Positions 129 through 4,153 of a stretch of 64,000 bases of DNA are shown here, in pieces. The position numbers were made by a program, and so were the translations under genes. Source of the DNA: Zoogloea sp. (lineage in GTDB: Bacteria > Pseudomonadota > Gammaproteobacteria > Burkholderiales > Rhodocyclaceae); the NCBI RefSeq assembly GCF_030157465.1, contig NZ_JAOAUU010000060.1:62001-126000 (forward strand), given 5' to 3'. How positions within the stretch are numbered: the first letter of the stretch is position 1; the number at the start of each line of letters is the position of its first letter. Under the pieces are notes generated by a model. That model was not told the DNA's origin, did no database searches, and was given only the letters and a program-made list of their open reading frames with translations.

Positions 129-326
129 TTAATCCTTGCCGTTGCCGTCGCCGCGCCAGCGGGCAAAACCGTGGCTAATCTCGCGCAGCCACCCGATCTG
201 GCTCCGAAAGGCGCGGCAGCCGCGGCAAAAAACCAGATGCAGGCGCAGATTGAAGCGCTCGCCGCGGCCGAGGGGACGGTCGAGGCTGTCGGACATCAAG
301 CGGGTTGCCTTTTTACAGGTCAGCAT
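129..326 (-). CDS. small zinc-finger anti-sigma factor (zf-HC2 type, soluble)
   Basis: This 65-residue protein carries the zinc-binding anti-sigma signature H30-x3-C34-x2-C37 (sequence HLVFCRGC), with a further Cys at position 4. Proteins of this family bind the partner ECF sigma factor and release it when the zinc thiolates react or lose metal. There is no membrane segment, so it should act in the cytoplasm, unlike the membrane-anchored anti-sigma factors. Its ATG lies inside the end of the sigma gene (7-base overlap), so the two are probably translationally coupled. A longer upstream reading frame exists but is only the sigma gene read out of frame. It is the last gene of the bufA-bufB-bufC-sigma-anti-sigma operon. 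Confidence 0.8.
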   Translation of the reverse strand: MLTCKKATRLMSDSLDRPLGRGERFNLRLHLVFCRGCRAFRSQIGWLREISHGFARWRGDGNGKD

Positions 327-904
327 GCGGCAGGCTCCGTGCCGAACCAGCCCTGGGTGAGGCATTGCCTCAAGCCGGCGCGGGCCCGGTGAAGAATGAC
401 GTGGCAATGGCTCGTCGTGAGTGAAAGGGTGCTGCAGATCTCGTCGGTTTCCAGCCCGAGAAATTCGCGCATCATGAAAACCCGCCCGGTACGCGCCGGC
501 AGCACTTCGAGGCAGGCCTCGAACACCTCCCAGAACTGGCGCTGCTCCAGCGCCGCGTGCGGGTCGCCCCAGGGCCGCGGGCGGCTGTCGGGGCGCCAGT
601 GCTCGTTGGCCTTGAAGAGCGCATCGAAGGTGTCGTCCATGCTCTCGTCGTCCCGCTCCAGGCTGGACACCTGCACCGTGCGGCTGCGCTCCCGCAGCGC
701 GTCGACGATCTTGTGCCGCAAGATGGTGAACACCCAGGTCTTGAGCGCCGCCCGGCCGGCAAAACGGTCGATGCCGGCCAGCGCCGCCTCGATGGCCTCC
801 TGCACCACGTCCTCGCCGGCCGCGTCGTCCTGCAACTGCAGGCGGGCAAACTTGACCATCTGGGGGCGAAAAGCAGAAATCGATTCGGCGGCGGCAGACG
901 TCAA
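320..904 (-). CDS. ECF-family RNA polymerase sigma factor
   Basis: The 194-residue protein has a sigma-70 region 2 at about residues 10-75 (QDDAAGEDVVQEAIEAAL, then ALKTWVFTILRHKIVDALR) and a region 4 helix-turn-helix at about 125-185 (FMMREFLGLETDEICSTL, then HVILHRARAGLRQCL). It lacks regions 1 and 3, as ECF factors do. The start is a TTG at 904 that overlaps the bufC stop in a TTGA quartet. A GGGAG Shine-Dalgarno sits seven bases upstream. It should direct transcription of its own operon, including the bufferin-like genes, and be held inactive by the small zinc-finger protein downstream. That partnership is inferred from gene order and family. Confidence 0.88.
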   Translation of the reverse strand: MTSAAAESISAFRPQMVKFARLQLQDDAAGEDVVQEAIEAALAGIDRFAGRAALKTWVFTILRHKIVDALRERSRTVQVSSLERDDESMDDTFDALFKANEHWRPDSRPRPWGDPHAALEQRQFWEVFEACLEVLPARTGRVFMMREFLGLETDEICSTLSLTTSHCHVILHRARAGLRQCLTQGWFGTEPAAC

Positions 905-1638
905 GCGCGTACTCCCAGAATGACGCCGGCGTGGCGCAGGGCTTGCAGGTTGTGGTGGCCAAAATCGACAAAAGCCCCATCGGCCGGCCGGCCCAGTTCA
1001 AGGGCCAGCTGCGCGATGGCGTCACGGCCGCGGGCCCCGGCGGCCAGCACCTGCAGCAGGCGCGCCGTGGCCGGGCTCAGTTCCATGAAACAGACCTCGT
1101 CGTCCGGGTCGCGATACACCAGCATGTTGAAAGGCTGCGGCCGCCGTGGCCGAAACGCCGGGCCAATGCGATGCACCGGCCATTCAAAGGCCAGCTGCAG
1201 GGACGCCGGATTCACCACCGGCACACCATCCAGCAAATCGCCCGCGGCACCGACAGGCGGCAGCGCCACGTCCATCACATCCACCGCCAGCTCGGCCCAT
1301 TCATAACGGGCCAGGTCCACAAACCAGCGTGGCAGGGGCGCCCGGCAGGCAGCGCCCAGGTAATCGACGAACTCCCGCGGGATTTCGCGAAACCATGCTG
1401 TGCGGCACGGCCAGTCGCGAAAGAAGGCCCGGCACAGCCGCCTCCAGCGCACTTCGCCAAGGCAGGCGTGGGCCACCGGAAAACAGCGGTCGAGAAAACC
1501 ACACAGATTGTTGAACAGCAGTTCTTCATACACCGCCATGCGCCGGGCCGGCACGCCGGCAGGTTTGGGCGCCCGACGGCCGGCCCGGATACGGCGGCCG
1601 AAGGCGGTCTGGAAGGCCTGCAGCGTGGGCGCACTCAT
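901..1638 (-). CDS. bufC: BufC/HvfC-like DUF2063 protein, partner of the DUF692 enzyme
   Basis: The 245-residue protein starts with a DUF2063 domain (about residues 6-95; motif RRMAVYEELLFNNLCGFLDR, then CFPVAHACLG), followed by a less conserved C-terminal half. In the well-studied gene pairs, the DUF2063 protein binds the DUF692 iron enzyme and recruits the precursor peptide for modification of its cysteines. The old label putative DNA-binding domain is not supported by that work. The gene overlaps bufB by four bases and the sigma gene by four bases, so the three are tightly coupled. The family call is confident; the exact chemistry is inferred from homologs. Confidence 0.87.
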   Translation of the reverse strand: MSAPTLQAFQTAFGRRIRAGRRAPKPAGVPARRMAVYEELLFNNLCGFLDRCFPVAHACLGEVRWRRLCRAFFRDWPCRTAWFREIPREFVDYLGAACRAPLPRWFVDLARYEWAELAVDVMDVALPPVGAAGDLLDGVPVVNPASLQLAFEWPVHRIGPAFRPRRPQPFNMLVYRDPDDEVCFMELSPATARLLQVLAAGARGRDAIAQLALELGRPADGAFVDFGHHNLQALRHAGVILGVRA

Positions 1639-2477
1639 GCCGCAGCCCTCGTCATTCCGGCCTGCGCCTGAAGGCGGGCGATCTGCGCGACTTCCTGGCC
1701 CAGCTCGGCCAGCGGCGGAAAGTTGAAATCCCGCTCAAGGCAGGTTGGCAGCACGCCGGCCCGGCGATAGGCCGCTTCCAGCAAGCGCCACACATCAATG
1801 ATCACGCTGGCGCCGTGGGTGTCGATGACGAGGCCGTCCGGCTCGGTGTGATGGCCGGCCACATGGATGTAGCAGGCGCGATCGAGCGGAAGCTGGTGCA
1901 GGAAGCCGAGCGGATCGAAACCAAAATTGCGGGCATTGACGAGAATGTTGTTCACGTCGAGGTGCAGCAGGCAGTCGGCCTCGTCGACCACCGCGCGGAT
2001 GAATTCCGCCTCGCTCATCTCGGCGCCCGGCGGGGCCACGTAAAACGAGGCGTTTTCGATGCCGATGCGCATGCCGAGCACATCCTGCGCCTGGCGGATG
2101 CGGGCGGCCGTCCAGCGCACCGCCTCATGGGTGCAGGGCAGCGGCAGCAGGTCGTAGAGCTGGCCGGCGTCGTTGCTCCATGACAGGTGCTCGGTGTACA
2201 GCCGGATGCCGTGGCTGGCCATGAAGGCGCGGGTCTGTTTGAGCAGATCCACATCCAGGGGCAGCATGCCGCCCAGCGACAGCGACAGGCCGTGGCAGAC
2301 AAAGGGATAGCGCTCGGTGAAGGCGCGCAGCTGCCGCGCCGAGCGACCGCCCATGCCGGCCCAGTTCTCGGGCGCCAGCTCGAAGAACTCCACCGCGTCG
2401 GGCACGCCGGCTTCGAGTTCCGGCAGCAGCTCGCGGCGAAACCCCAGCCCGGCGCCGCGGGGCCAGTGTTCAGTCAT
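1635..2477 (-). CDS. bufB: BufB/HvfB-like DUF692 multinuclear non-heme iron enzyme (MNIO)
   Basis: The 280-residue protein is a DUF692 TIM barrel of normal length. The candidate metal ligands follow the family order: H62 in CHGLSLSLGG, E96-H97 in EHLSW, the Glu of IGIEN, HLDVNN, HVAGHH, DTHG and ERDFNFP. MNIO enzymes oxidise Cys residues of a peptide substrate, for example to thiooxazole or oxazolone-thioamide groups. Here the probable substrate is the Cys-rich peptide encoded 53 bases upstream. The ATG is at 2477 and the stop overlaps the DUF2063 gene by four bases. No key residue appears to be missing by eye. Confidence 0.9.
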   Translation of the reverse strand: MTEHWPRGAGLGFRRELLPELEAGVPDAVEFFELAPENWAGMGGRSARQLRAFTERYPFVCHGLSLSLGGMLPLDVDLLKQTRAFMASHGIRLYTEHLSWSNDAGQLYDLLPLPCTHEAVRWTAARIRQAQDVLGMRIGIENASFYVAPPGAEMSEAEFIRAVVDEADCLLHLDVNNILVNARNFGFDPLGFLHQLPLDRACYIHVAGHHTEPDGLVIDTHGASVIIDVWRLLEAAYRRAGVLPTCLERDFNFPPLAELGQEVAQIARLQAQAGMTRAAA

Positions 2478-2530
2478 GTCGCGCGCTCCTGGCAGCGGGC
2501 GGGCTTGCCCGCCCTGCCGGAATCAGGGGA

Positions 2531-2845
2531 TTACTTTTTGTCGCCACCGCACTTGGCGTCCATTTTTTTATCGGCGCCGCACTTGGCATCCGCCTTTTTG
2601 CCCCCACAGCTGCCGTCCGCCTTTTTGCCGGCGGCTTTCTTGTCGCTGCCGCATTTGGCGTCGCCCATCTTGCCGGGCATCTTGTCGCCCGTGGCCTTGT
2701 CGTCCATCGCCTTGGTGTCGGCCTGGGCGAGCTGGTAGCCCGCCGACAGGGCGGTGGCGGCAAAGGGGTTGTCGGCGGCGTGGGCGGCGGAGCCGAGGGC
2801 AAAGGTGGAGGCCAGCACGGCGGTGATCGCAGCAGTTTTTTTCAT
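2531..2845 (-). CDS. bufA: BufA1/HvfA-like secreted Cys-rich RiPP metallophore precursor
   Basis: The encoded protein of 104 residues has a signal peptide (MKKTAAITAVLASTF, cleavage likely after AHA) and a mature part rich in Lys, Asp and Gly. The mature part has four Cys in near-repeats: DAKCGSDKK, DGSCGGKK, DAKCGADKK and DAKCGGDKK. This matches the bufferin/HvfA precursors, whose Cys in KCG motifs are modified by DUF692 enzymes and which bind copper or other metals in the periplasm. I chose the ATG at 2845 because GGAG lies nine bases upstream. An in-frame ATG at 2854 abuts that GGAG and would have no spacer. It is the first gene of the operon with bufB, bufC, the ECF sigma factor and its anti-sigma factor. 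Confidence 0.87.
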   Translation of the reverse strand: MKKTAAITAVLASTFALGSAAHAADNPFAATALSAGYQLAQADTKAMDDKATGDKMPGKMGDAKCGSDKKAAGKKADGSCGGKKADAKCGADKKMDAKCGGDKK

Positions 2846-2901
2846 GATTTTCATCTCCGTTGGGGCAGCATGAGCACCGTTCCGGATGGAAGGTGCTGGC
2901 G

Positions 2902-2932
2902 AATAGTCGGCGACATCCGGGTGTTTATTACA
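2902..2932 (-). promoter_or_regulatory. candidate ECF-type promoter of the buf operon
   Basis: Read on the minus strand, TGTAATAA (2925-2932) is followed after 15 bases by CGACTATT (2902-2909). The -10-like box lies about 57 bases ahead of the bufA start. The pair has the look of an ECF promoter (TGTAA-like -35, CGA/CGTC-like -10) and would let the encoded sigma factor drive its own operon. The match is by eye only. Confidence 0.4.
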
Positions 2933-2950: not shown

Positions 2951-4153
2951 TCAGCGCAGCGCCACCCGGTGGCGAAGCACTGCGAGGCCAGCGAGGGCCA
3001 GCGCTGCAAAGGCGGCGCCGCAGAAAAAGGTGGCCTGGGAGCCGAAGGCGTCCCACAGCCCGCCGGCCAGCACGCTGGCCACCAGCAGCGCCACGCCGCC
3101 CACCAGGTTGAAAACGCCAAAGGCCGTGCCGCGCAGCGTCGCCGGCGCCACATCCGCCACCAGCGCCGCCAGCAGGCCCTGGGTCATGCCCATGTGCAGG
3201 CCCCACAGGGCCACGCCGAGCGCGAGGCCCACGAGGCCGTCGACCAGCGCCAGCACCAGGTCGGCCGCCACCAGCAGCGCAAAGCCCAGCGCCAGCAAGG
3301 TGCCACGATGGACCCGGTCGGCCAGCAGGCCCACCGGATAGGAAGTGGCCGAATACACCACGTTCATGAGCACCAGCACCGCCGGAATCAGCATCAGCGC
3401 CACGCCCAGCTCCTGCGCCCGCAGCACCAGAAAAGCCTCGCTGAAGCGCGCCACCGTGAACACCGCCGACACCCCGACGACCCACCAGTAAGCCGCCGGC
3501 AGCTTTGCCAGTTCGGCCCGCGACAGCGGTGCGCGAGGCGCGTCGGCCGCCACATGGGGCGCGTCGTGCACCGCAAAGACGATCAGCGCGAAGGCGGCGA
3601 CGGCCGGCAGCACGGCCCACCCGAAAACCCGCCGGATGTCGTCGTCGAACAGCGCCATCAGCCCGATGGCAATGAGCGGCCCCATGAAGGCGCCGGCGGT
3701 ATCGAGGGACTGGCGCAGGCCGAAGGCCGCGCCGCGCAAGCCCGGCGGCGCCAGATCGGCGATGAGGGCGTCCCGCGGGGCGCCGCGGATACCCTTGCCG
3801 ATGCGGTCGACAAAGCGCGCCGCCACCACCCAGCCGATGCTGCCCGCCAGCGGAAAGACCGGCTTGGAGCAGGCCGCCAGACCATAGCCGATGGCCGCCA
3901 GCAGCTTCCTCTTGCCGAGCTTGTCGGACAGCGCACCGGAAAACACCTTGGTGATCGACGCCGTGGCCTCGGCAATGCCTTCGATGAGGCCGACCGCCAG
4001 CGTCGAAGCCCCGAGCGCCCCGACCATATAGAGCGGCAGCAGCGCGTGGATCATCTCGGAGGAGATATCCATCAGCATCGAAACAAAGCCCAGCGCCCAG
4101 ATGCCGGGCGGCAAACGGGCGCTGGCAGGCGCGTTCGGACGAGGGGGCATCAT
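2951..4153 (-). CDS. MFS transporter
   Basis: The 400-residue inner-membrane protein shows about 12 hydrophobic segments and the MFS loop signature between segments 2 and 3 (SGALSDKLGKRKLLAAIGYG). It also has a conserved DRIGKGIRGAPRDALIADL stretch that is typical of a subgroup of bacterial MFS proteins related to drug or multidrug exporters. The substrate cannot be read from sequence. It lies 105 bases upstream of bufA on the same strand, but a probable promoter separates them, so a link to metal handling is only a guess. The ATG at 4153 is followed by a second Met; either could be used. Confidence 0.85.
   Translation of the reverse strand: MMPPRPNAPASARLPPGIWALGFVSMLMDISSEMIHALLPLYMVGALGASTLAVGLIEGIAEATASITKVFSGALSDKLGKRKLLAAIGYGLAACSKPVFPLAGSIGWVVAARFVDRIGKGIRGAPRDALIADLAPPGLRGAAFGLRQSLDTAGAFMGPLIAIGLMALFDDDIRRVFGWAVLPAVAAFALIVFAVHDAPHVAADAPRAPLSRAELAKLPAAYWWVVGVSAVFTVARFSEAFLVLRAQELGVALMLIPAVLVLMNVVYSATSYPVGLLADRVHRGTLLALGFALLVAADLVLALVDGLVGLALGVALWGLHMGMTQGLLAALVADVAPATLRGTAFGVFNLVGGVALLVASVLAGGLWDAFGSQATFFCGAAFAALALAGLAVLRHRVALR

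Follow-up and report, generated by a model that had tools for sequence, protein, structure and literature searches.

The operon at positions 129-2932 of the window (the whole stretch of 64,000 nucleotides of Zoogloea DNA that was analysed) is best explained as an autoregulated HvfABC operon with an ECF sigma factor that would be released by oxidation of its anti-sigma factor and that would also read msrPQ, a reading to which we assign a probability of about 0.82. It lies on the minus strand and consists of five genes, which encode a secreted peptide, an HvfB-type MNIO enzyme, an HvfC-type partner, an ECF sigma factor, and a zinc anti-sigma factor. From the promoter onwards, the features are the following:

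2904-2932, minus strand: predicted ECF-type operon promoter, -35 region TGTAATAAAC, -10 region CGACTATT
2531-2854, minus strand: precursor peptide (HvfA/KCG-repeat type), assigned by sequence features, under the cut-offs of the HvfA models
1635-2477, minus strand: HvfB-type MNIO (DUF692) maturase, PF05114 320.6 bits, NF003818 383.1 bits
901-1638, minus strand: HvfC-type partner (DUF2063, PME1), NF050145 260.5 bits, PF09836, NGO1945_C
320-904, minus strand: ECF sigma factor with a TTG start that overlaps the partner stop, TIGR02943 254.1 bits
129-326, minus strand: zinc anti-sigma factor of 65 residues, NF052368 76.6 bits, zf-HC2 30.1 bits

The precursor and MNIO genes are separated by 53 bases, and from there on the genes overlap by 4 bases (1635-1638), 4 bases (901-904), and 7 bases (320-326). 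Because of these overlaps, the family matches and the conserved gene order, chance can be excluded. Five joined genes in this order and with these overlaps had been claimed by the first-pass annotation, and coordinates and family matches agree with it; the family search and gene-order comparison that it proposed gave the same picture, with four proteins passing curated models and the order recurring in relatives. The MNIO enzyme is above the cut-off of the NCBIfam HvfB model NF003818 (360) and matches PDB 3bww (E 4.6e-71). Missing metal ligands had been named as a point that would speak against the DUF692 assignment, but the His, Asp, and Glu residues are there, and H62, H97, E141, D174, H205, D219, H221, and E248 are near-invariant among 40 sequences, the window included. 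The partner, encoded directly downstream, is above the cut-off of NF050145 (142) and that of PF09836 (91.4 bits), and it matches PDB 3dee (E 1.9e-18), which is described as NGO1945 (PMC12668002, PMC2954202). The label "bufferin-type" had to be given up: the enzyme scores 244.7 bits with the BufB model NF050167, under its cut-off of 310, and a Pfam search found no DUF2282 match in the precursor, whereas the HvfB and HvfC models are passed, and thus the operon is, by curated models, an HvfABC cluster (oxazolin/captophorin, KCG-repeat) and not a strict bufferin cluster. Of 70 inspected loci (30 short loci and 40 fetched stretches, a subset of the MNIO-search matches), 20 are HvfB-type. A sigma and an anti-sigma gene are nearby in 14 of these, and three of the other six are on a short contig or begin at a contig edge.

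The sigma factor exceeds the TIGR02943 cut-off of 162.2 and matches Sigma70_r2 with 51.3 bits, also above cut-off, and its TTG start is backed by an ATG or GTG at the same position in three relatives (L231, L232, L247). The anti-sigma factor passes the antisigmaE model NF052368 (cut-off 50), and its putative zinc ligands Cys4, His30, Cys34, and Cys37 are at positions equal to those of NMB2145/MseR. A Cys near the start and the HxxxCxxC motif are found in all 80 sequences that were compared (window and 79 loci).

As judged from its conserved matching promoter, the sigma pair very probably feeds back on its own operon, and this part of the earlier idea of a self-regulating unit stands. The predicted promoter, located just upstream of the precursor gene and with an AT-rich stretch immediately upstream, has the top matrix score of the window on both strands (18.5, the next being 13.5) and resembles the sigma-E consensus published for Neisseria (PMC2893595). 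The matrix was built from 15 msrP promoters, all from other genomes. When the genus was excluded from training, a score of at least 12 was reached by 33 of the 37 regions upstream of a precursor gene, as compared to 2.4% of 1500 random pieces, but the independence of the matrix tests is incomplete, since the pattern used to select the msrP training sites had originally been noticed at the precursor promoters of these operons. Taken alone, the pattern is no evidence, because its reversed form, used as a control, matched more often (35 and 28) than the pattern itself (8 and 7), and it is position, orthology, and the matrix tests that count. Further sites in the own genome were dismissed, as three of the 15 pattern matches (L082, L083, L085) represent a single repeated sequence, and at least two others (L075, L080) fall within genes. 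A recurring pattern match in relatives, GTAAAGGTTCATGGGG..., is presumably 23S rRNA.

The promoter motif is also present before msrPQ, and the same sigma factor seems to read these genes too. The msrP sample comprised 79 matches (30 loci and 49 stretches), with weak paralogues, fragments, and one duplicate contig match omitted, and as 11 of them had no alignable gene start, 68 were left. A strict site was found in 15 of 45 msrP upstream pieces of sigma-bearing genomes and in 1 of 23 pieces of genomes without sigma, meaning no match at E 1e-30 (Fisher p 0.007); shuffles gave on average 0.065 for the 45 pieces, and the reverse strand gave none. The strict site is absent from 30 of the 45 pieces, and the msrP site of the window's own genome reaches only 11.4 with the genus-free matrix, which is under a repeated sequence at 12.1-12.6. 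The ordinary msrB, a target in Neisseria, was considered as well and rejected, since the genome has a single PF01641 gene, and its upstream region lacks such a site.

From the genes, the conserved residues, and the conserved promoter, we infer the following mechanism. HvfC would recognise the precursor and, together with the iron enzyme HvfB, would oxidise its four cysteines in the cytoplasm, with 5-thiooxazole as the probable product, and the Sec signal peptide would carry the modified peptide to the periplasm, where it may bind a soft metal such as copper. In the resting state, the anti-sigma factor, a small cytoplasmic protein presumably with bound zinc, would hold the sigma factor, and oxidation of its zinc-binding cysteines by HOCl, peroxide, or a thiophilic metal would release it. 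The freed sigma factor would then transcribe the operon from 2904-2932, resulting in more peptide, both maturation proteins, sigma and anti-sigma factor, and it would also read msrPQ for periplasmic methionine-sulfoxide repair.

As to the inducer, published support for this class of anti-sigma factors favours oxidants over metals. Autoregulation and anti-sigma action have a published precedent in Neisseria (PMC2893595), and HOCl-induced, sigma-dependent expression has been described for the Haemophilus operon (PMC7907618). It counts against our explanation that in N. meningitidis the tested oxidants are reported to have left sigma-E expression unchanged (PMC2893595). Alternatively, the system could be dedicated to metals, with an anti-sigma factor that senses copper, zinc, or gold directly by a metal swap at the zinc site, metal buffering as the main response, and msrPQ as a side target. 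This would agree with the copper-binding thiooxazoles described on the HvfA product (PMC13419390), with the copper binding reported for gonophorin (PMC12668002), and with the copper induction of E. coli MsrPQ via CusSR (PMC9302797), but the closest described sigma/anti-sigma relatives are tied to oxidants, HOCl and H2O2 are reported to induce H. influenzae rpoE2 (PMC7907618), and RsrA-type zinc sites are described as thiol switches (PMC2893595), and a metal-dedicated system is thus rather unlikely.

Our explanation also has to be reconciled with the distribution of the sigma factor. Of the best 80 sigma loci (of 408), 33 are HvfB-type, 7 are beside DUF2282-type genes, and 40 have neither peptide type and no MNIO of either type in the examined stretch. 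DUF2282-type and peptide-less sigma loci, together with the promoter motif before msrPQ, indicate that the sigma pair does not serve the operon alone, and in this respect the earlier idea has to be changed. One might go further and regard the pair as an accidental passenger, transcribed alone and with a function elsewhere, for which the position behind hvfABC is irrelevant. This would fit the 40 loci without MNIO and the 9-mer TGCTATGCT, an extended -10-like sequence that precedes the sigma gene in 13 of 13 HvfB-type loci (L233-L245). Such a passenger role is improbable in view of the matching promoter before the precursor gene in the 33 of 37 loci, the co-occurrence of sigma and MNIO genes in 121 genomes (49 with both, 12 with sigma only, 18 with MNIO only, 42 with neither; p 2e-8), and the situation in the four loci of the window's clade, where TGCTATGCT is absent and the start of the sigma gene overlaps with the stop of bufC.

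The 9-mer is located in the 3' end of doxX, within codons for Leu-Ala-Met-Leu, and in six of the loci L233-L245 it outlasts doxX, with nothing else recognisable of that gene left. A variant, TGGTATGCT, occupies this position in 7 of the 11 loci outside this group that have doxX. In the operon of the window, doxX, which is usual but not universal in HvfABC clusters, is absent, as had been noted at first, and DoxX was also not found elsewhere in the genome, neither with PF07681, a search that was positive in 7 of 14 control genomes, nor with the DoxX of a relative in a protein search that had no positive control of its own. In the sigma tree, the absence of doxX needs three changes, at least one of which is forced by well-supported branches, and doxX therefore has likely been lost repeatedly. 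The absence is not unique to the genus, as the sigma gene also lacks a preceding doxX in some loci from outside Zoogloea (L262, L277, L298, L300, L304, L306). The Zoogloea series of intact gene, relic, scar, and complete loss could reveal the role of DoxX for these peptides, and it could show how a sigma switch is rewired once a hidden promoter is lost. We would suggest, as a tentative and still somewhat doubtful idea, that the Zoogloea sigma pair had an always-on promoter TGCTATGCT in the doxX 3' end that the window's clade has lost together with doxX. If so, a buffered circuit would have changed to pure positive feedback, possibly a bistable one, and the switch of the window would be driven entirely by the operon promoter or by transcripts that read through from the MFS gene upstream of it. 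This gene (2951-4153), which has the same direction, was rejected as a part of the system: it is present in the window, L231, L232, and L247, and was not found at the other loci among the best 80 of 408 (L230 having no upstream DNA), nor at any other of the 70 inspected loci. It is possible as a source of read-through only.

The precursor likely starts at the second ATG (2845), which is better spaced (CGGAG, then nine bases) and gives a product of 104 aa. A signal peptide, recognised by eye, is followed by an NPF...GYQ segment and by four Cys-Gly sites in the order DAKCG, DGSCG, DAKCG, DAKCG. Pfam gives no match for the precursor up to E 1, and both HvfA models are missed as well (NF050137 with 13.3, cut-off 19.5; NF050188 with 13.8, cut-off 95), and the precursor of L034 from the same genus passes NF050137 at 24.5 and misses NF050188 at 26.5. 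Among the 15 loci with a precursor match within L231-L245 and L247, identity is 61-66% in eight and 49-58% in the other seven. That the operon is degenerate, with doxX gone, the repeat shortened to four sites (three of them KCG), and a peptide that is perhaps unmatured or has another role, is very improbable, because the negative DoxX searches of the genome and the six or more Cys in 12 of 16 relatives' precursors are outweighed by open frames, conserved enzyme residues, a retained promoter, several doxX-less sister operons whose other genes align, and further four-Cys precursors in L034, L046, and L058.

The combination of HvfABC genes with their own ECF/zinc anti-sigma pair has already been published for Neisseria. 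What is new is a genome in which no DoxX was found, with a doxX loss that can be traced across Zoogloea, a regulon that appears to include msrPQ, and the 9-mer before the sigma gene that is kept after doxX loss and absent in the window's clade. Among the matches listed, which covered few subscription journals, there was no publication on the operon promoter, the msrPQ link, or such a Zoogloea operon. For environmental bacteria, a young class of copper-binding peptides would thereby be connected with a defined promoter and with methionine repair in the periplasm, a link that was earlier described in few pathogens only.

Most similar is the Neisseria operon NMB2140-NMB2145/NGO1948-NGO1943, described as doxX, precursor, DUF692, DUF2063, rpoE, and mseR (PMC2954202, PMC2893595). 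It shares with the Zoogloea operon the succession of precursor, MNIO, partner, ECF sigma, and small zinc anti-sigma factor with Cys4/His30/Cys34/Cys37 (PMC2893595), and it is reported to be polycistronic and autoregulated from a promoter GTMAG...CGTCTAAH (PMC2954202, PMC2893595). However, the Neisseria operon begins with doxX, which the Zoogloea operon lacks, and the second target is msrA/msrB in Neisseria but apparently msrPQ in Zoogloea. Haemophilus influenzae shares the HvfABC maturation of a KCG-repeat peptide, a small cytoplasmic zinc anti-sigma factor, and the control of the doxX-hvf operon and of a methionine-sulfoxide reductase by RpoE2 (PMC7907618, PMC13419390). In contrast to Zoogloea, its RpoE2/HrsE pair is encoded away from the hvf operon, close to msrAB, and works in trans (PMC7907618), doxX (hvfX) is present, and the reductase genes are msrAB, whereas the Zoogloea regulon apparently includes msrPQ.

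Caulobacter SigF/NrsF is similar in that an ECF sigma factor has been described to act in a heavy-metal response. The system is reportedly connected to DUF692/DUF2063 operons, and it is said to have a DUF2282-type precursor and NrsF as anti-sigma factor, unlike the Zoogloea operon. In a survey from 2025, Buf1 clusters are reported to contain sigma and NrsF genes (PMC12452194). In the SigF/NrsF-yedYZ-mrpX system of perchlorate reducers, an ECF pair is likewise combined with MsrPQ (YedYZ), there against hypochlorite (PMC4623255), but the anti-sigma factor belongs to another family, and the available text of that report describes no MNIO peptide (PMC4623255).

The window (C58:62001-126000) belongs to a genome of 4.7 Mb; judged by the sigma factor, its closest named relatives are Zoogloea, as read from the 80 top-ranking of 408 named loci. 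The operon consists of five genes that run on the minus strand from 2854 to 129, listed here below their promoter:

2904-2932, minus strand, predicted ECF-type promoter of the precursor gene
2531-2854, minus strand, precursor peptide
1635-2477, minus strand, MNIO enzyme (HvfB-type, DUF692)
901-1638, minus strand, partner protein (bufC; HvfC-type, DUF2063)
320-904, minus strand, ECF sigma factor
129-326, minus strand, zinc anti-sigma factor

After a first gap of 53 bases between the precursor and MNIO genes, the gene ends share 4, 4 and 7 bases. These genes, their order and their overlaps had been described in the first-pass annotation, and the gene calls agree, as do the curated family cut-offs, which four of the five proteins pass. 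The MNIO enzyme matches PDB 3bww (E 4.6e-71), and its residues H62, H97, E141, D174, H205, D219, H221 and E248 are near-invariant among 40 sequences, the window counted. The partner protein matches PDB 3dee, which is gonococcal NGO1945. The anti-sigma factor has Cys4, His30, Cys34 and Cys37 at the positions described for meningococcal MseR, in which Cys34 is reported to be essential, with contributions from Cys4 and Cys37 (PMC2893595). The precursor stays under both HvfA cut-offs in the curated model search; by eye it has a signal peptide, and it has four CG sites and an NPF...GYQ segment that is found in all 17 precursors read (window included). An MFS transporter gene (2951-4153) lies directly upstream in the same direction; among the loci compared, such a neighbour was found solely in the window's clade (four loci).

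Relatives whose operon is followed by the sigma pair show TGTAAG-N16/17-CGWCYAAT upstream of the precursor. A search of the window's genome gave 15 matches, which is below the count of the reversed-pattern control, and the pattern by itself therefore proves nothing. A matrix from 15 msrP sites outside this genome ranked the window's precursor promoter first in the 64 kb (both strands), with 18.5 against 13.5 for the next site. A second matrix, trained on 13 msrP sites from outside the genus, was applied to 37 regions upstream of precursor genes (30 KCG-type, 7 DUF2282-type): 33 reached at least 12 and 30 at least 15, as compared to 2.4% and 2.1% of 1500 random pieces from the same loci. Such matrix tests are not fully independent, because the msrP sites were chosen via the pattern first seen at precursor promoters. 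Of the four regions below 12, two (L289, L302) have a recognisably similar site, and in the other two (L280, L283) the available upstream DNA is just 70 and 206 bases long.

The genes for periplasmic methionine-sulfoxide repair, msrPQ, seem to be linked to the same switch. In the window's genome, one pattern match with a modest matrix score (11.4) lies 61 bases ahead of the msrP start, and msrQ follows downstream. Across the sampled family, 45 pieces upstream of msrP came from genomes with the sigma factor, and 15 of them have the strict form of the site; in sigma-less genomes the count is 1 of 23 pieces (p 0.007). Shuffles of the 45 average 0.065, and the reverse strand of the pieces has none. 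A periplasmic thioredoxin-like protein of the window's genome is a candidate third target: an ECF-like site (L073 1501-1527, C8:18132-18158; score 15.0) precedes the start of this signal-peptide-bearing CPTC protein's gene by 67 bases. A different sequence, GTAAG...CGGTCT, is found ahead of msrP in 7 of 23 pieces from sigma-less genomes versus 4 of 45 from sigma-bearing ones (examples are L096, L115, L116, L119, L160, L164 and L186), and may reflect a takeover of msrPQ by another ECF sigma factor. In one relative (G069, C1:3403572, locus L089), a strict site lies 65 bases before the start of a secreted DUF1223 protein. In another (G066), 9 of the genome's 17 pattern matches are inside 47 kb of one contig (C49 13083-59640), a possible regulon island; the contig also carries the sigma gene, an MNIO gene and, by eye, a gene of a VTT-type membrane protein.

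Among 70 loci examined, 20 are of HvfB-type, and 14 of these have sigma and anti-sigma genes: behind the operon in five (the window, L034, L035, L048, L058), in front on the same strand in six, and with the sigma gene facing away in three. The 80 top-ranking named sigma loci (of 408) comprise 33 of HvfB-type, 7 of DUF2282-type and 40 with neither within the stretch examined, and 79 have the anti-sigma gene. The same switch thus adjoins two peptide types; in Zoogloea ramigera NBRC 15342 (L259), the DUF2282 kind stands beside the sigma pair, with a matching promoter (score 22.3). Sigma and MNIO genes tend to occur together: among 121 genomes, 49 have both, 12 only sigma, 18 only MNIO and 42 neither. 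L255 (5001-6913) carries two adjacent sigma/anti-sigma pairs of this family.

A doxX gene lies just before the sigma gene in 18 of the 33 HvfB-type named loci, counting a broken relic in L239. It is intact in L240-L245, about 16 bases are left in L233-L238, and in the window, L231, L232 and L247 there are none, the sigma start overlapping the bufC stop. Six more HvfB-type loci outside this group lack doxX at that place, and on the sigma tree its absence requires three changes. Neither a family search nor a search with a relative's DoxX found a match in the window's genome. The extended -10-like 9-mer TGCTATGCT lies within the retained doxX bases in all 13 loci L233-L245 (L239, L240 and L245 being titled only Proteobacteria bacterium), and is absent from all four window-clade loci, from L246 and from the DUF2282-type Zoogloea loci L259 and L296; the L230 stretch is too short to judge. 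The looser TGnTA[TC]nnT occurs in 63 of 2000 random 450-base pieces. Outside this group, doxX precedes the sigma gene in 11 loci. Seven of them (L260, L268, L269, L273, L278, L289, L302) have TGGTATGCT in the matching position, 104 to 123 bases ahead of the sigma start, and four (L246, L264, L282, L301) do not, but coding sequence alone may partly explain this likeness. The scar in L235-L238, where the 9-mer bases are identical and the remainder of the gap has diverged, is the stronger sign. From these sequence comparisons the 9-mer is read as a putative promoter that survived the loss of doxX and would give basal sigma expression.

The first-pass interpretation as a self-regulating unit is right in outline; the five-gene architecture is already in print. 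Neisseria has the order doxX, precursor, DUF692, DUF2063, rpoE and mseR, with co-transcription found by RT-PCR, autoregulation upon rpoE overexpression, and msrA/msrB as the other target (PMC2954202, PMC2893595). In Haemophilus, RpoE2 and HrsE are encoded elsewhere, yet control doxX-hvf and msrAB, with HOCl among the inducers (PMC7907618). The window's operon is therefore a new example of a kind already published. For Buf1 clusters, a survey of MNIO loci from 2025 describes genes for sigma factors and NrsF, and the passages concerned do not mention zinc anti-sigma factors (PMC12452194). What is added to the published work is the promoter, the apparent link to msrPQ, the swapping of peptide types next to a single switch, and the traces that doxX left as it was lost.
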